A stretch of DNA of 64,000 bases from Entophlyctis helioformis (taxonomy: Eukaryota; Chytridiomycota; Chytridiomycetes; Chytridiales; Chytriomycetaceae). The stretch lies in NCBI GenBank assembly GCA_025526915.1, contig JAHLKH010000035.1, positions 1-64,000 on the forward strand, in the 5' to 3' direction. Position 1 is the stretch's first letter. Every line of letters starts with the position of its first letter. Positions 26,799-35,977 of the stretch are shown here, piece by piece. The position numbers and the translations under genes were made by a program. The notes under the pieces are model-generated. The model saw only the letters and a program-made list of their open reading frames with translations. It searched no databases and was not told the DNA's origin.

Positions 26799-26806
26799 GC
26801 AACCTT
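26799..26806. repeat. Left candidate target-site duplication, GCAACCTT
   Basis: Eight bases directly outside the left terminus. The right flank at 35,970-35,977 reads GCAACGTT in the same orientation, seven of eight identical. Confidence 0.65.
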
Positions 26807-26829
26807 GGCCCGATATTCATACAATTACC
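26807..26829 (+). repeat. Left terminal inverted repeat
   Basis: Begins GGCCCG and ends TCATACAATTACC. Against the inverted right end it matches 20 of 23 bases; the mismatches are confined to positions 7, 9 and 10. The matching terminus of the other copy ends at 738. Confidence 0.75.
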
Positions 26830-27075
26830 AAGAAGTATTGAATTAAGTTCGATCCGAGAGGCGTCGAATGCAAACCCATATATCACACGATGGAAGGTTC
26901 AAGTCAGCAACGAGCATGCGACGACAGGCAGGCGAGGCACATCCACATGCATGAGCGGCTTACCTTTCATTATTATTGAAATAATGATGTGATAAGTGAC
27001 CCGTTAGGTCGATCGGGAGGTGCCCCGATTCCAAAAGTTGCTGGTGGTGCTGGAAGTCAGAGCGCCAAAGGCTTG
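26807..27075 (-). ncRNA. Candidate guide-RNA (omega-RNA) region at the 3' end of the Fanzor element
   Basis: In TnpB and Fanzor systems the guide scaffold lies at the 3' end of the element and the guide is read from the flanking DNA. This noncoding region follows the Fanzor stop, ends at the terminus, and is conserved in the second copy (about 475-738). It contains an AT-rich inverted repeat (CATTATTATTG ... AATAATG near 26,968-26,988) able to form a hairpin. The role is inferred from position and conservation only. Confidence 0.4.
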
Positions 27076-30000
27076 TCACGTGGAGTGGCACGTGACTTGC
27101 TGGCACGCTGTGACTTGCTGACACGCTGACTGTGTTGGACGCAGCTTGTCGACACGTCTTGCACGATCCTGGACGACAGGCCGATCGGGTGGTGTTGGAG
27201 GCTGCTGGATGACGGGCGGATCGGGTGGTGCCAGAGGCTGCTGGTCGACAGGCGGAGCACGTATTGCACGCAGCTGGATGGAGATATGCATTGCCGCGAT
27301 GCTGTTGAGGTGCGTTTGCGTGGCTGGATTGCTGTCGGCTTTGGTGTGCGTCAAGTAGAGCGGCCGGTGTCCAAAGAGCAGATGCCACAGTGCAACCATC
27401 CCGATGTTGGTGGCTCCAAGCACGTCTCGGTGGTAGAGGGTCTTGCAGTCTGTGCACTCGTAGCGTCGCAGGTTGGTGCGGTTCTTGTCTGGGATCCGCT
27501 GCTTGCACTGCGGGCACATCTGGCTGGTCAGGTTCTCGTTGCAGCGGTAGATCTGTGTGTGTGTGTGTGTGTGTGTGTGTGCATGATCGTGTGTCAGTTG
27601 GTGCACAGATGGATGGATGGACAGCGTGGCATCAGACGCACATAGGCATATCCAGACGACCGCAGATGCCTGATGAGAAACTTCTCAAACACAGCGTGCC
27701 GGCCACCTTGGCCTGTAAAGTCGATGCCAAATGCCCACACAACGGGAATGTCCTTCTCTGGGTTGCTGACAGGGAGGCCTTGAGACGCACGAGATGCGCG
27801 CTTGCCAGTCGTTGATCCTGCCAGCTTCATGATGCCCTCAAGAGCGTTTCCGCGATCAGACGTGCGGTTGCTGCACATGGTGAACCGCTTGGCCTTGACC
27901 TTCTGTGGAATGCCACGTCATGCCATGCCATCCAGTACAATCAGCAGGCGATCAAGCAGCATGGCGGTCATGTCAATGGGCATTCAGAAACAGAGAAAAC
28001 GTACCCGTGCATTCAGGAATGGCGAGCAGTACGCACGGCAGCGCAGATCCCAAAAGGCTCTCTCGCCAGGCTTGACGTTTGGATCGGCATGCTTTGCTGT
28101 CTTGAATGCAATGGCCTCGTGGACGTCGGCTGCCTTGGCATATCGATTGTTGAGCCTGGCACAAGAGGCAGGCACTGTGAGTTGATTTGGTCAAGAGTGC
28201 GCGTGGCAGAGTCATTGCATGCATACCACCGCTGAAAGATGCGCTCAGCATGTGCCATGCCAGAGGAGAGCACGTAGTTGGCCTCAAGTGTATACGAAAA
28301 GTCTCTGAGATCAACCAAGATGCTGGACGCGCCATACAGGTACCGCTGGCCCCAATCAAAGCTGACAACACGAACAGACTGGTAGCCTTGGTCAGTGAAC
28401 AGATTGTTGGCGTTGATGATGTCATGCAGTCGCTGTGAGGCGTAAAAGTTGCGCTGGGCCTGTCGTGCCATGACATGAGTGAGGAATGTGCAGTGCATGT
28501 GCACCAATGCGCGAGGTTGGCATGCAAGTGGCTTACAGGATTGGGTGCTTTTGGCTTGGTGGCTGATGGGTCGGCTGGATCGGTGGCTGTGGATGGCATG
28601 TCAGTCGGTGTGGTCAACAAGTGCGCGTCTGGATTGGCACAGCAACTCACATTCGCAATCCATGTGATCATGCCCGTCATTGGCCTCATCATCATGAGCA
28701 TCACCAGCAACCCACGGCTGCTCGCCTGAAGACATCAGATTGGAGTATGCAGAGCAAGGCAGTGGTCAGAATCAATGTGTGCACCATCGCATTCAAGTAC
28801 GCCACATACTGCGAGGCGACTCTGGACGGTCTGTGCGAAAGTCCAGAGTCAGCTGAGAGACGCTGTATCCATCAGTCTTGATGCTGCCTAGTCTGACTGC
28901 CTTGGTTGGTCGCGCTGGGGGCAGGGCTTTGATCGCAGCCTGGATGTAATCCTCGCGCTCCTTGCCATCCAGACTCTGCTTGCTGGCCTCTCGCGTCGCC
29001 TTGGCTGTGGCCGCTTTCTTTGCCTTGGCGTTGGCCGCGTCCATTTGGACCTTAGCGTCTGCAGGCGTCTGGAAGCGTCGTGTATCCGAGGCGAGTCCAG
29101 GGAGGAGGATGTCGAGAACGCAATCCTCGCGGCTTGAGCTGAAAGCGGCTTGTATGTCGTTGTTGGATGACGCAAGAGTCAAGGCTTGCGAGCCAGGCTC
29201 TTTGAGAAGAGTGGTTTGTAAGTATCAAATCATGTAAACATGGCATAACCAAGTGCGACCTACTGCTGATCGCAGCCAAGAGACGCTTTTGCAAAGCCTG
29301 CAATGCCGCGTTGTTCTTGGTTGGCTTGCGATCCTTCAGGTTCCCTATCACCGACCAAAACAGAATGGTCTCGGTGATATGAACAAACGGGTCCCGATTC
29401 GCCGCCTCAGGGCATAACTTGATCACTGTTTCGCCGGCCAGCTTGCGCAGCCGGTAGAACTTGCCTATTTCCGACAGCGACTTGTTGAGCAAGATCGCCG
29501 CAAGCCTAACCAGCTGTTGGGGGATCCCAGCAATGGCCATTCCCTCCGTGTCTGAAGGTGTGCTGGATGCCGCGTCTGTGGTGGCCTCGTCCCTCTCGCC
29601 ACATGGCTTCTTGGTCGCGGTGCAATCGGTGGGCGACGAAGAGCTAGACAGGGCCCTCTTGCGACCTGTTGCAGGAGGTGCAGCATCCAGAGTGGCTTGT
29701 GGTGCAGCGTCAAGATCGGCCGGCGATGGGGCATCCTTGGCGGCCAGTGGCATGGCGTCCTCAGCGACCTGTGGTGTGGCATCCTCAGCGACCAGTGGCG
29801 TGGCATCCTCAATGGCTTTGGTCATGGCCGCGACTGATGCCACGACCTCCTCCTTTGATGCGCCGGGCATCAGCTGGTGGGCAGCAGCAAGCACGAGCAT
29901 CGACTGGTTCGAGATGACATGCACTGCCAGCATGGTGCAGATATCTCGGGCCAAGTAGCTGTAGATGTCACTGGTCGCTCTCGAGCACAGACCAACAGCC

Positions 30001-31800
30001 AGCTTGCATGGCAGGACTGCCTTGTCCAAATCTGTCTGGATCGCGCTTGTCTGGATCGCGTCCATCTTGTCAGCATCCATCATATCCATGCCCATCATGT
30101 CAGCATCAGCCATGTCTGCACGCACCTTGCCTGCATTGGCGTGCACCATGCGCCGCGTCCAGTTACGGTGAACAATCAGTTGCATGACGGTGACTAGCCA
30201 TGCGTTGGTTGTGTCCATAGTTGATCGCGGCTTTGCCATGCGACCATTGCCAACAATCATGACAATGTGGCGTAGGAGACATGCCACAGACGTCACACCG
30301 CCGGATCTGCTGCTGGTCAGTGCTGTGAGGAGTTGATTGGCAGTTGGAATGACTGCTGCTGCTTCTGCTTCTGCTTGCTGCTCGTGCTGCTCATGCTGCT
30401 CGTCATCCTCGTAATCCTCATGATCGTCATCGTCCTCGTGGTCATCATGATCGTCATCGTCCTCGTGGTCATCATGATCATCATCATCCTCGTGGTCGCG
30501 ATCGTCCTCATGGCTGTCAGGACCGTCAGGGTCATTGGGGCCATTGGGCTGCTTGGGCTTCTTGACGCGTCCGAGCGAGCAGAGCTCAAGCACTGTGCCC
30601 TTTGAGAGGATCACAGAATCCCCATAGAAAGGGATTTTGCCCTTGCGACCATGTGGACCAACGCCGTACATAAACCGGACCATGGTGTCCTTTTCCAGCA
30701 CACAGTATCCTGCCAAGAGCGCAGCCTCCGTCTTGCGGTCAAGTTTCTCGCGATCAAGAAAGCAGTAGTTGGTCTTAATCAACGATTTTAGCTCAGGTGG
30801 AGAGGGATCAGACCGCAATAAGATAGCTTCATTCTAGGGAAAGGACGCAAGTGCCACAATGCGAAGCCACAGATCCCAGTCACGTGATCTTGGCTGCGGA
30901 ATACAACGAGAAGCGTTGATATCTTTCCATCACGGGTCCACTTGAAAACGCGATAATCGAGTGGCAGCGGCTCATCTGACTCGAGCTTGAGCAGTACTTC
31001 GAGAACAGCGCCGAGCATCACAATCCCGACATGCCGAGCGCCGACGATGAACGTGTAAACCTTGGCAATGCAGGCTAGGACAACCATGGCGACGGTTTGC
31101 TCTGCTGAAAGTAGTTTGGCTGGAGGGCCCAACAACTTTGCGCTTGCTGGATTGTCTGAAACCATCTCCTGCACACCTGTCAGCACACACAAAGCCGAGC
31201 ATGCAGAGCAGCATCGCGATCAACTCCCATACCTTCAGATCCACGATCATATTGGGGCGTTGTTGCTGCGTGTTTGTCTGAGCCTTTGGTGCTTTGGGAT
31301 GCTGCTGTGCCTCCTGCTGGCGCTCGTCCTCCTCCTTCTCCTTGTCTTTCTCTGTGCCCTCCTCTGTTGGTGCTTTGAAATTGGCGGCTGCAGGAAGAGT
31401 CTGGCAGGCCCCTTGTTGGAAGTCGCCCATCCGGACAAGCTCATTGTGCCAGGCGCGTCGATCATGCAATGTGTATCTGCCAGCAGAATGCATGTCAGCA
31501 AGCACAATCAAGGCACGCGACATGCAATATGCCACTCACGTGCCCGTCTTGTCTCCAGTTTTGTCCTTTCGGGCATCCAGACCTCCCTCCTTCTTGTTCT
31601 CCTTGACGATCTCATCTGCCTTGGCCTTCTCTGCACGCTCTGCCCTCTCCTTCTCACGTGCAGCCAGCATGGCCGGCGTGCAATGGCGTGGCTCCTGCCG
31701 CGGTTGGATCCAGTATCAGGTGTCCATTCTGCGTGCACAAGATGCTCACAATCACAAGCCTGCTGTTCAACTCACAGTTGTCTTTGTGTCATCAAACACA
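27076..31800 (-). CDS. Fanzor, eukaryotic TnpB-like RNA-guided nuclease
   Basis: The C-terminal exons are clear. RuvC-I is VRVVSFDWGQRYLYG (Asp at about 28,355). The RuvC-II region is VVWAFGIDFTGQGG (about 27,700), without the usual Glu; CNENLTSQMC offers an alternative Glu at about 27,537, as reported for Fanzors. The four-Cys ribbon reads CPQC...YECTDC, and RuvC-III is YHRDVLGATNIG (Asp at about 27,424). Before RuvC comes KTDGYSVSQLTLDFR. Upstream exons (29,270-30,838 and 30,890-31,470) form a long N-terminal part with an Asp/His-rich acidic run and repeated AEDATP units. Donors GTATGT, GTAAGC and GTGCGT fit the joins, for example a phase-0 join at TATGCCTAT|GTGCGT to CACAG|ATCTAC. The start is unresolved, and exons seem to continue upstream into the nuclease described next. 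Confidence 0.75.
27553..27584. repeat. TG dinucleotide repeat in a Fanzor intron
   Basis: About 30 bases of alternating TG/CA sit at the 3' end of the intron before the zinc-ribbon exon. The first copy has a shorter CA run at the same place (9-24). Confidence 0.9.
30390..30510 (-). repeat. Acidic Asp/Glu/His microsatellite in the Fanzor coding region
   Basis: Imperfect GATGACGATCATGAC-type units encode EDDDDHDDHEDDDDHDDHE, followed by Gln/Glu/His repeats. It lies in a long exon and is probably a disordered linker. Confidence 0.8.
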
Positions 31801-32257
31801 CCAAGAGGGAATCTCTTAAGGCATGCTTGGTTGGTGCGATTGTTCTCAGATGACCTGGGCAGCTTTTCTGGCGGTGGAGGAGGGCCAGCCTGTCAAGCAA
31901 AAGGATGAGCAATCGTGCCAAATCACTGCAGGCACACACAGACAGTGGAAGATGAGACGCACTGCAGCTTGCTCAATGACTTTCTGCAGCAGAGTAATGG
32001 CCTTTAGACGCTGATTGACGAGTGTGATTGAATTGCCCCTGCCCTTGCCCTTGCCCATGCTGATGCGCCGATTCTTGAGGCCGTTCAGGGCGTCCAGCAG
32101 GTCTGTGGCCTCCGCATGGATAACTTCAAACGTGTCTGCCGGTGCCACTCTTGTACTGATCCGTCTGCGGTGCTTGATCGGCTGTGTGTCTTGCTGCGTT
32201 TGTGGATCTGCAATAATGCGTTCCACAATGATGGCATTGTGAGTGGATGATATCAAG

Positions 32258-34388
32258 TCATCGCAAAGCAAGCAGCACATACTGGGAGTGGATACATTGC
32301 AGAATGAGGCGCGTTTGGGATGCGCAATCTTGTGCAGCCGATCGCGCATTCTTGGAGCAACAGTCTGTGCAGGAGCAATGGATCGAGTCAGTCTTAAGAT
32401 CAACAACCACACATGGTGCAAGAGCTGCGGCATGCATCCAAGCCATGCAGCAACTTACAAAGGCGTGCAAAATGAGCTTATCTTGTTTGCTGAGACCTGC
32501 GTACTCATCCGGCTCAATAGATTGCTCCCTGACGGTCTGCAGAAGCTGGGTACTAGCCGTCCTGCAGATGGCAGAGAGGATATTACGGCATGTGACGGCA
32601 TTGTAGTTGTCGGCAAGGAGCTCAACCGCATGCCTGTTGATGGCACCCATCGCCACGCGGCATCCCTTGACTTCCCTGAATGCAGCGTCCAGTTGCCCAC
32701 TGATGACAATGGTGATGGCAAGCTGCTCAACAGCACTGCGCGTAAGATGAACAGCTGCAGGGATGGGCTCGCCATTCTTTGCCTTGGGATGATTCAAGCA
32801 GCATCCAGGCGACAAGCACCTGGAGAATGATCAGAGAATGGCATCAACACATACATGCAGTGTCAGTTTTTCCAGAAACGCCACAGATGGCATGCATGCA
32901 TACTTGGTCTCAGCTGAGGCAGCCGTGTCAACATCCATGCTGTTGGCATTGCCTGATTGATGCTCAGAACTGGCAAGGCATTCAAACGGGTCAATGCCAG
33001 TATGTCTGCAACCGCACTTAATCAAGAAGCTTGCCTGGTTGCAATCACGCCAGTTGGTGCACTGGGCTCAGTCTGGTTGACAAAGATGTCAAATGCATTC
33101 TGGAATGAGTGCACAAGGCTCCCATCACCGATCTCAGCCAACTCCTTGATGTACGCGTCCTTGACAGCGTGCATGAATATGCTGGCCTCAAATGGAGTTT
33201 GAAGGATGGCACAGAGCTCGGATTTCTCAATCCCCAGCTCGACAGCCTTGGCGTTGAACTGCGTGTTGGTGAATTCAGCGGCGGCCGCGATTCCTGGCAG
33301 GGAATGCAAGCAGAATCGTGCACAAAGACAAAGAATGGCATGAGTGATGACAGATACAACAAAACAGGCGTGGCAGCTCACCGTAGCCATGGCGGGCAAA
33401 GAAATCTGTATGAGAAAGTGAAGCAATCAGCTTGCACACACCGCAAAAATCCCACACACCAAAGGCGGATGCCATGGTGGCAATCCCACCATGGTTGTAG
33501 GATCGCATTGGTGCGATCCGCCCATGCTGCATGTGCGTCAAAATGACAGCACAGTGCCCAGCAGCATGGGCAACAAGGTCGGAGTCATTTCCAACAACAA
33601 TCATTGGCTTTGGACTGCCACTCAATGCATACTGTGAGCCATCAACTAGAACAGAAGAACGGCACGATGATCTCTTACCTTGACTTGCAAACATGGCGGG
33701 CGATGCAACAGTCTGCCTCGTAGTCACAATGGCAGACCGTGCATCCCTTCTTTTTGCCAACAAGCTCGTTGAGGGCTTCAACAATGTGCCGCTTATCCAT
33801 CTGTGTCAATGTGAAGAAGCGGCTGAGAGCGTGTTTCTCTTCCCTGATTGCCAGAAGCAGAAGATGGTTAGTAAGGCAGCCACACAAGGCAGAGCAGCGA
33901 CCTTACTTGGTCATCGACCCCGCCTGCTTGTATTCTTGACGCCGGTAGGTGTGCTGCTGGACTGTGGCGGCTGCTTCGAGCATCTTGAGTGTGCGGCTGT
34001 GGTGGACCAGCTTGACCTCCAAGTCACCAAGACGCCCGTCAACATGGAACCAGACGTTGTGGCCGTTGCCAAGCGACGCCATAAAGACCTCCAAGGCCGG
34101 CTGGATAATGGCCTTCCAGCCGGCCTTGGAGTCTGGCTGGCTGATGGCTGCTGTTGCAACCAAGGCTGAAAAGAATATGCTGAGAAAGTCGACATGTATA
34201 GTGCTGCTGATGAAGCTGCTGGCGGCTGTTGTTGTTGCGGCTGTTGCTGTTGCTGTTGTTGCGGCTTGCTGTTGCGGCAGTGTGCTATGGAGCACAACCT
34301 GCACGACCTGGCCCAGGGCCCAGGCAGCGGTGTGGACAAGGACGGCGCCGTGCATCTCGGCCACTTTCAGCAGGCCTACAAAAGTCAT
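32258..34388 (-). CDS. XPG/FEN1-like structure-specific nuclease, maybe fused to Fanzor
   Basis: The exon from 34,388 starts MTFVGLLKVAEMHGA. It then has VLVHTAAWALGQVV, where FEN1 has its first catalytic Asp (here His), and VWFHVDGRLGDLEVKLVHHS, the XPG-N VFDG-type motif with its Asp. The next exon has CTVCHCDYEADCCIARH, matching the XPG-I EAEA/EAD acidic pair. After a 33-base GTAAGA...TAG intron comes MIVVGNDSDLVAHAAG, matching the EDxD pair. A helical region follows (FTNTQFNAKAVELGIEKS-like), then Cys/His pairs KCGCRHTGIDPFEC and KCLSPGCCLNHPKAK; the latter is created exactly by an AA|GTATGC...CAG|GTGC join. Exons continue past 32,258 (TVAPRMRDRLHKIAHPKR) towards the Fanzor with no obvious stop. 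Confidence 0.65.
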
Positions 34389-34666
34389 GCTGGTGCTGCT
34401 GCTGCTGTGTGTTGTGTGTGTGGTACTGTGTGGTGCTGTGTGGTGCTGCGTACTGGTGCGTGCTGCTGCTGCGTCTGTATCTGTGTTTACGAGAAAAGAA
34501 TCGGAGCGTCTGGCGGAGTTGAACTTTCATTGCCGACACAGACAGAGAGCGAGTGGATAGAGAGCAAGCAGTCTGGCACTCGCCGCCCACTGTCCAACAG
34601 CCATAGAGGGAGCAGCGAGCACCAACAGCCAGGCGTTCAAGATGCGGTCGTGTGTTGCTGGCACAG

Positions 34667-35856
34667 TCATTGATGTGATGCCACCCAGTGTGCAGCTCGA
34701 CATGCACTGTGCAGCATCACTCTGCGTGTCATGAGCTGCATTGCAGCGAGCGTCTCTCCGAGTGTCGTCTTCTCAGTCAATGTCCCATTGCATCCAACAA
34801 TCGTCCTGATATGCATCTGCATTGTGACCCAGTGCAATGCAGTTGGTGTTGCCTGACTGGCCAGCTGGTCCATGGACAGGTTGGCTGTTGGCGCACTGCC
34901 TGCATCGCCCCTCTGCTCTGGATTGTCCTTGTCAACAAACACAGTGCATGCAAGACTTGGATCGTCAGGACCGTCGCCATCATCATCGTCGTTGTGGTTG
35001 TTGAATGGATCGAGAGTGCTTGGTCTGTCTGTCTGGCCACTCCATGTGCTGCTCAGTGGATCGCATCCAAGATGCCATCGCACCAAGTGCATTGTGGCCA
35101 GACACGCCTGCCAGCACTCGCGTCCTCCTCACCAATCTCGTCTGGATCAGTGTCTCCGAGTGTGCTGCTCATCGAGTGCGCTGCCACTGTCGAGTTTGGC
35201 ATCCAAGTCGGCATGCCAATCCAGCTATCCAGCAAGCAGTTCCTGCAGCCAACTCCAAGGATCGATCCATTGAGCACGTCTCAGTGGCTGCTCATCTGCT
35301 GCTGCTGCATCCCATGTCGCAGTCGGAAAGCACCAGGCAGCTCGGTCCTGCGATGCCAACGCTCTCGCTGTCCTCTTGAACAACACCCAGATCGCCCTGT
35401 TCACAGCCGCCTTGCCGTCGTCCCTTGCTGTTTGGAGCCATCAGACATGCACACAGTCAGTGCCAAGACCACGCAGACACGGCCGTCAGACTGCTGTGCC
35501 GTCGTCGTCAAGTGGAAATGGAGCATGCCTAGACAGACATCGAGTCAACGCACCCGCTTGCCTGTCTGCAGCCTGCCTTCTGTCCGCCCCGCCTTGTTGG
35601 GCACGCTTCTCAGACGGCCACGACCACGCTGCTCTGCTGGATAGCCTGCTGCATGGCCTGCTGCATGCCACCATGAGCAGTGAGCCTCGCCGTCTCCCCC
35701 TGAAAGGACTCGACCAGCAAGCGAGTGTTGTCCCATATCCGTGCTGTCGCCTGCGTTGCCGTCGTTGTCGTTTGGCTCGTTGTTGCTTGTGTGCAGTTGG
35801 GCGGCAAGTGCAGCAGCGTCTGGATCTGGCATGGCGCGTTGTTGCTGTGCTCGCAT
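34667..35856 (-). CDS. Unrecognised acidic coding region at the 5' end of the element
   Basis: Minus-strand segments have protein-like composition: AMPDPDAAALAAQLHTSNNE (start near 35,856), AIWVLFKRTARALASQDRAA and WIDPWSWLQELLAG at about 35,220-35,400, MSSTLGDTDPDEIGEEDASA at about 35,150, and DPFNNHNDDDDGDGPDDPSL at about 34,950. Joining them requires introns I could not place. They may be 5' exons of the nuclease gene or a separate small protein. No known domain is seen. Confidence 0.35.
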
Positions 35857-35946
35857 CGCGCAGTGTCTGCACCGTGCAAGGGCTCTCTAGATCGACCAAT
35901 CAGAGCGATTCCACCAGGATTGACCAATCAGGAATATTCCACCAGG

Positions 35947-35969
35947 GGTAATTGTATGAGAACCGGGCC
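35947..35969 (-). repeat. Right terminal inverted repeat
   Basis: Plus strand reads GGTAATTGTATGAG and ends CCGGGCC at 35,969, the inverted partner of 26,807-26,829. Two CCAAT boxes (GACCAATCAG, at about 35,894 and 35,921) lie just inside it. Confidence 0.75.
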
Positions 35970-35977
35970 GCAACGTT
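35970..35977. repeat. Right candidate target-site duplication, GCAACGTT
   Basis: Directly outside the right terminus and same orientation as GCAACCTT at 26,799-26,806. The CSL4 start codon begins four bases later. Confidence 0.65.

Follow-up and report, generated by a model that had tools for sequence, protein, structure and literature searches.

Can a eukaryotic DNA transposon carry, together with a Fanzor-type nuclease, a second nuclease of the flap-cutting kind, and how might the two act in its movement? The question is raised by positions 26807-35969 of the window studied here, the whole 64,000-nucleotide stretch that makes up positions 1-64,000 (forward strand) of contig JAHLKH010000035.1 of the chytrid fungus Entophlyctis helioformis (assembly GCA_025526915.1). 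A first-pass annotation had described this interval as a mobile element coding on one strand for a Fanzor and an XPG-fold enzyme, a pairing for which it knew of no description. The role of Fanzor-type nucleases for eukaryotic transposons is treated as an open question in the literature (PMC10432273; this and the other cited papers were available as excerpts). Searching the end patterns in the 29.57-Mb, 482-contig assembly showed that 26807-35969 is a single copy of a high-copy DNA transposon. Its coding part is a minus-strand exon chain in the order XPG-like module, middle region and RuvC/zinc-ribbon module, and the pairing of the two nucleases is confirmed as a trait of the family.

The element is bounded by 23-bp terminal inverted repeats (TIRs), GGCCCGATATTCATACAATTACC on the left (26807-26829, plus strand) and GGTAATTGTATGAGAACCGGGCC on the right (35947-35969, plus strand; with a single mismatch against the common form of this end). 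Paired with each other, the two arms agree at 20 of 23 positions (87%). At three mismatches or fewer, the left 23-mer has 170 matches in the assembly and the common right 23-mer has 86; both numbers fall to 0 when the pattern is reversed. The left and right patterns differ at four positions, and some three-mismatch matches are the opposite end read backwards; two such right-end rows, C5:255372 and C6:124879 (contigs and loci are given by our own handles), are left ends read backwards and were dropped before counting. The flanks carry an 8-bp target-site duplication, GCAACCTT on the left (26799-26806) and GCAACGTT on the right (35970-35977), identical at 7 of 8 positions. By its inverted repeats and target duplication, the element thus belongs to the TIR DNA transposons, and the ends together with 8-bp duplications indicate ordinary double-strand insertion.

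Beyond the window copy, a target duplication matching at 7 or 8 of 8 positions as printed was found in 17 of 33 elements, read in sets of 13 and 20. The set of 13 has four perfect 8-bp duplications and includes the window copy at 7/8; C18 would also reach 7/8, by eye, if its boundary were shifted by one base. Seven of the set of 20 are perfect and five stand at 7/8, with C67 and C297 sharing flanks and representing one event, and C219 showing, by eye, an 11-bp repeat. As a background, 4 of 380 non-cognate pairings among these 20 reach the same match level. Four further elements comprise a perfect case (C199), two at 7/8 with common flanks (C35:164492 and C436) and one without a duplication (C25). 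In the shortest class, a 2169-bp deletion derivative has a perfect duplication. The mobile nature of the element, its inverted ends and its near-identical flanks, all proposed from the window alone, are therefore borne out by ends, duplications and copy number across the genome.

To what extent do the two modules travel together? Pairing of 100 listed left ends (at most two mismatches) out of the 170 with 84 of the 86 right ends, at distances below 25 kb, gave 41 two-ended elements: 38 long ones (7.2-20.6 kb, 27 of them measuring 7.2-9.8 kb) and three short ones (989, 1052 and 2169 bp). On the basis of the 150 listed matches each to a RuvC exon and an XPG exon, both modules were matched in 32 of the 38 long elements, and in 35 after zinc-ribbon matches were added. 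The remaining three hold one module each, XPG in C60:92223-101279, RuvC in C151 and the zinc ribbon in C25, a deletion derivative. These module counts are counts of exon matches and do not imply that the genes are intact. Seen from the modules, 96 of the 150 listed RuvC-exon matches have a same-strand XPG-exon match upstream within 15 kb, at 3.5-6.5 kb in 78 cases; within 6.5 kb, none has one downstream and a single one has one on the opposite strand. The 54 matches left unpaired in each list carry little meaning, since only 150 matches are listed for each exon. Seen from the ends, a RuvC match lies within 3 kb inward of 78 of the 100 listed left ends, and an XPG match within 4 kb inward of 61 of the 84 right ends used. 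Order and orientation of the modules are constant across copies. The first-pass view of two nucleases coded on the same strand of one mobile element is thus upheld, and copies lacking the XPG-like open reading frame are not the rule. Capture of a unique host gene is ruled out: the XPG-like frame is multi-copy within common ends, and the four PF00867 (XPG_I) matches that belong to the host genome, on contigs C1, C43 and C2, lie away from the elements.

Some copies depart from the usual size or content. C25 (7.55 kb), absent from both the RuvC and the XPG match lists, was considered as an element with a different cargo, which is ruled out by its two ends, its retained zinc ribbon and the presence of a duplicated insertion; the locus (L095, C25:58000-65650) is an element remnant in which inserted coding sequence of another kind stands as a tandem duplicate. 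The 989- and 1052-bp loci (L092, C35:164440-165530; L093, C436:7810-8960) are internal-deletion derivatives which still match the zinc ribbon, rather like 'ghost' loci; found on two contigs with identical flanks and duplication, they are a segmental or assembly duplicate. Two-ended elements of 13.9-15.9 kb occur on C69, C12, C2, C151, C52, C23, C39, C5 (189422-205272) and C297, their extra length presumably coming from nested insertions.

The spliced Fanzor-like module occupies 27076-29199 on the minus strand, as judged from PF07282, motif counts and splice junctions agreeing with the annotated proteins P0007 and P0012; its C-terminal tail and its stop at 27076 are unconfirmed. An N-terminal part (29199-28806) precedes the RuvC/zinc-ribbon nuclease, which displays a RuvC-I DWG, a displaced glutamate, a C4 zinc ribbon and a RuvC-III HRD. 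The PF07282 zinc ribbon scores 42.4 bits against a cut-off of 26.3 in the spliced window copy and is matched by 6/6 members, and the NCBIfam guided_TnpB model gives a match below its cut-off (E 1.1e-6, 28.2 against 100 bits). Motifs were counted in 33 rows, the window copy and 32 script-spliced rows in which one copy occurs twice (C141 = L042). The motif published for Fanzor and TnpB, D-X(125,275)-[TS][TS]XX-C4 zinc finger-X(5,50)-RD (PMC3627910), is present in 30 of them, with the zinc-finger spacing assumed to be 5-40 and with spacers of 188 and 5 residues in the window copy. The displaced glutamate (E-X6-C..C, six residues before the zinc finger) was counted in 30 rows, HRD in 31 and DWG in all 33. 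According to the excerpt at hand, the Fanzor fingerprint consists of DPG, near exclusive to Fanzors, plus a displaced RuvC-II glutamate, and there is a clade with the displaced glutamate in which a hydrophobic residue replaces the P of DPG (PMC10711439). DWG with the displaced glutamate fits this second clade, as far as the excerpt describes it, and the module is therefore termed Fanzor-like and not assigned to Fanzor1. The zinc ribbon and the displaced glutamate support the original 'Fanzor' label, whereas the replacement of DPG by DWG does not. To judge from its motifs, the predicted RuvC protein is a member of the TnpB/Fanzor superfamily, by a membership less clean than earlier claimed, and it would add to the eukaryotic proteins a form that the published Fanzor fingerprint does not cover.

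The XPG/FEN-like module is located at 33082-34388 on the minus strand, with exons 34388-33907, 33843-33679, 33614-33382 and 33293-33082. The motifs of the XPG/FEN family were matched by eye, with host EXO1- and XPG-type segments as reference. In a spliced alignment of 31 of 33 rows (L038 and C141 were left out for their low scores, and the 33-row set holds one copy twice, C102 = L025), six motifs follow each other as [HL][VI]D, FH[VI]DG, EAD, NDSD, [TN]D[YF] and G[IL]xAA. By motif order, read by eye, the module thus has the ordered catalytic acids and the helix-hairpin stretch following them in XPG/FEN nucleases. The acids are invariant in a 7-sequence alignment (44-92% identity to the window copy), and script counts give 28-32 of 33 per motif (NDSD 32/33, EAD 30/33). 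In a second alignment, sub-threshold Pfam matches are to XPG_I_2 in 6/6 members (E 0.0047 at best), to 5_3_exonuc_N in 3/6 and to NYN_YacP in 1/6; in P0001, where all three profiles fall at 207-292, XPG_I_2 reaches 15.5 bits against a cut-off of 24.2. Owing to these sub-cut-off scores, the module is called XPG-like only: the six ordered motifs support the 'XPG-fold' label of the first-pass annotation, but the profile matches all remain below cut-off. One annotated host protein, P0006 (395 aa), starts with XPG-like sequence, and its remainder is unrelated and looks like a Ty1/copia polyprotein; an insertion or a wrongly joined gene model is the probable cause.

Between the two modules, a middle region (29264-33034, minus strand) comprises eight predicted coding exons, supported by third-position excess against the diverged copies C102 and C1, and has no Pfam family match. 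Its last exon (30833-29264) lies within a 593-aa open frame, longer than any frame in 200 resampled sequences (maximum 351) and containing an acidic repeat, a tandem array of 9-bp period at 30363-30533 (repeat family D1). Of 16 exon comparisons with C102 and C1, 15 gave an alignment, and all 15 vary most at codon position 3. The excess spans the XPG, middle and Fanzor-like parts, which supports coding throughout. Ratios of nonsynonymous to synonymous divergence (dN/dS) were computed after leaving out rows that scored low or contained an in-frame stop. The XPG module has a median of 0.28 (30 rows; 419 informative pairs out of 435), the Fanzor-like module one of 0.46 (29 rows; 404 informative pairs out of 406).

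Are these parts one gene or two? In the window copy, a single spliced frame can link the XPG-like module, the middle and the RuvC/zinc-ribbon module with no stop between them, and annotated host proteins support several of the predicted splice junctions. Most likely, the three parts would be spliced into a single protein some 2,000 residues long. That two adjacent same-strand genes are present instead is plausible, if short of probable. The 12 annotated proteins retrieved for the two modules, all from E. helioformis, each cover the XPG part or the Fanzor-like part and never both, and a search for proteins of fused length (about 1,080-3,420 aa, best 7,999 candidates scored) found none. Internal ATGs also occur in the last middle exon, and a single-gene predictor imposes one chain. 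Against two genes, the window copy and the copies C102 and C141 all have introns with similar splice sites across the join, and a coding signal is found on either side of it.

The history of the element appears to be mosaic. Among three full copies, the RuvC/zinc-ribbon end is far more similar than the remaining regions: synonymous divergence (dS) of the window copy from C1 is 2.88 for XPG, 1.51 for the middle and 1.13 for the Fanzor-like N-terminal part, against 0.27 for RuvC/zinc ribbon, and from C102 the corresponding values are 0.94, 1.04, 0.73 and 0.21. In the simplest reading, the guide-nuclease end would have been exchanged or converted between old XPG lineages.

Fanzor omega-RNA is located just past the 3′ end of the nuclease gene, according to the part of the study available to us (PMC10432273). 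At the corresponding position here, between the 3′ end of the RuvC gene and the left TIR, a 35-copy alignment reveals a conserved block (26830-27056, minus strand), a candidate guide-RNA scaffold. Over 26807-27056 (250 nt), mean column identity in the 35 copies is 79%, and one hairpin of the 3′-end block is retained in nearly all copies; Rfam gave no match for the block. Position and conservation suggest that it may encode an RNA.

How would such an element work? We put at about even the chances that this 23-bp-TIR family, whose recognised coding content is an XPG/FEN-like module, a middle of unknown fold and a TnpB/Fanzor-superfamily RuvC module, relies on RNA-guided and flap-trimming activities. 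In such a scheme, the conserved block next to the 3′ end of the RuvC module would give rise to an RNA which that module binds and whose guide portion extends into the flank. The guided nuclease would then cut alleles which the element has left or into which it has not inserted, and repair would copy the element back; flaps or branched ends arising in excision and repair would be trimmed by the XPG-like module. No strand-transfer enzyme was recognised in the element pieces scanned. Ends, duplications, copy number, co-occurrence of the modules, conserved acids and dN/dS below 1 are observed, whereas RNA guiding, the fusion of both nucleases and the flap processing already proposed by the first-pass annotation are inferred.

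Several results weigh against this scheme. Apart from the missing fused protein mentioned above, they include, for the RuvC half, DWG instead of DPG in every row, the failure of the RuvC profile to match the PDB at E <=1, the weakness of the TnpB-type chains found in the PDB with a single RuvC sequence (E 0.28-0.84), and covariation in the 3′-end block that does not rise above shuffles. For the XPG half, no curated Pfam cut-off is passed, the profile retrieved only unrelated PDB matches (best E 0.72), and hhalign to two host XPG-family segments did no better than a RuvC control. Of two AlphaFold2 models, both too weak to read, that of the XPG-like module has a mean predicted local distance difference test score (pLDDT) of 42.7, from 5 sequences, and the other one of 43.1. 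In several rows, motifs are absent from the automatically built XPG model (none of the six is found in C141, and L019 is without the second and last); in our judgement, this happens mostly where the automatic splice model ends early. Finally, among the 33 elements, 16 match at no more than 6 of the 8 duplication bases as printed, and these may be older or recombined.

An alternative is that the element is non-autonomous: an unrelated DDE transposase encoded elsewhere would act on the termini, and both nucleases would be accessory cargo which raises retention but is dispensable for movement. We consider this a real, if tentative, possibility. TIRs flanked by 8-bp duplications, as seen here (about 11 bp in one case), are typical products of DDE enzymes. 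Fungal MuDR-like Fanzor elements without transposase and with 9-bp duplications are on record in the excerpt available (PMC3627910). Ends shared by the three short deletion derivatives, and the presence of KDZ transposase fragments in the genome (domain matches at C334:6404-7253, C271:9823-10062 and C396:222-449), go in the same direction. On the other hand, 38 of 38 long elements match at least one module and no partner with a different cargo was seen, most elements being only partly read. A KDZ transposon as the trans-acting partner found no support, matching termini being absent from the 8.5 kb around C334, the one KDZ locus read, and a search of the genome for MULE transposases gave none while its controls worked. 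The hAT search also gave none, but neither did its control genomes, which makes it no evidence of absence.

Could the XPG-like module, rather than cutting flaps, be a PIN-like or other fold serving binding or structure, its motif likeness being partly due to chance? The lack of a profile match above cut-off, an hhalign result that at best equals the control and an uninformative fold prediction would be compatible with this idea. It nevertheless appears unlikely in view of six motifs in FEN/XPG order with acids invariant in seven sequences, of the recurrent XPG_I_2 (6/6) and 5_3_exonuc_N (3/6) matches, and of dN/dS well below 1 across lineages, some of them with saturated synonymous sites.

Very improbable is the proposal that the two-nuclease protein is the transposase itself, its RuvC and XPG-like sites together making the strand cuts. 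In its favour, Pfam matches of the element pieces scanned include no known transposase domain, and nothing except the block of XPG-like module, middle and RuvC module is recognised as coding; this also applies to the one 7.7-kb copy read, C141, in which about 400 bp separate the right end from the first of the predicted exons. Against it, neither a RuvC nor an XPG fold is known to carry out strand transfer, and the uncharacterised middle could conceal a diverged DDE domain. In its boldest form, a single giant protein, XPG/FEN-like and TnpB/Fanzor-like, would mobilise its own transposon without any DDE enzyme, its RuvC half being exchanged between deeply diverged XPG lineages. We regard this as highly doubtful; if true, it would define a new class of eukaryotic transposition machinery.

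Relatives of the element were also looked for elsewhere. Outside E. helioformis, none was found with the RuvC profile (all 7,539 candidates scored), with the XPG profile (best 7,999 candidates, E <=1) or with the whole protein (best 7,999 candidates, within a limited length range). Viral contigs, scanned with two short peptide patterns as seeds for each module, yielded no relative, nor did prokaryote genomes for the RuvC profile, in a scan seeded by two such patterns; phages gave no relative of P0001. No paper naming both 'Fanzor' and 'XPG' was found in the literature searched, and none of the titles and abstract openings from related searches points to an element of this kind.

Academ transposons carry an XPG-type nuclease and give a precedent for the addition of a repair-type accessory enzyme to a eukaryotic DNA transposon; their duplications have another length, and they are not known to include a TnpB/Fanzor module. 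With XPG, FEN1 and EXO1, the present module shares, by eye, the order VD, DG, EAD, DSD and D[YF], then a GxxAA helix-hairpin-like stretch, but it differs by scores below Pfam cut-offs, by a large C-terminal extension and by the lack of relatives outside E. helioformis in the searches made. The excerpts consulted also mention a RecQ helicase for Academ (PMC3627910).

Closer likenesses are found with fungal Fanzor1 elements, as far as described in the available parts of PMC3627910 and PMC10432273: SPu-1 of the chytrid Spizellomyces punctatus and the MuDR-like ROr-4, PBl-3 and MCi-4. Shared with them are a fungal or chytrid host, TIRs, a C-terminal RuvC and C4 zinc ribbon with equal motif spacing, a conserved region between nuclease stop and terminal repeat, short 'ghost'-like copies and no recognised transposase. 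However, SPu-1 is about 2.1 kb long, with one 633-aa open reading frame and TA duplications (PMC3627910; PMC10432273), whereas the E. helioformis element measures 7.2-9.8 kb in 27 of 38 cases, has mostly 8-bp duplications and contains many introns. It further differs from fungal Fanzor1 by DWG instead of DPG and by the added XPG-like module and large middle. Fanzor1 in Ectocarpus IS4-type elements resembles it by TIRs, 8-bp duplications and a TnpB-like protein, but the transposon is of the IS4 type and the excerpt mentions no XPG-like nuclease (PMC3627910). Transposons that bear a Fanzor, including ones that lack a transposase and ones with 8- or 9-bp duplications, are already known from the same excerpt (PMC3627910). 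What is new would be a variant with an added XPG-like nuclease, with a small chance of more. With such a nuclease accompanied by a second, conserved one of repair type, in high copy and in many diverged lineages of a single fungus, the family lends itself to asking which of the active sites is required at which step, and the pairing could throw light on how the eukaryotic relatives of CRISPR enzymes aid DNA movement.

In its surroundings, the element has a kinesin gene (minus strand) on its left and an EXOSC1/CSL4 gene (plus strand) on its right, and appears to be seated between two divergent host genes. Just inside the right TIR, a 28-bp subterminal direct repeat occurs in two copies at 35890-35945 (plus strand; repeat family D17), with overlapping matches at several other right ends. 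These direct repeats are possible binding sites. More than two are apparently present in some copies, for example at the right ends C30:43842-43988 and C5:205071-205272.

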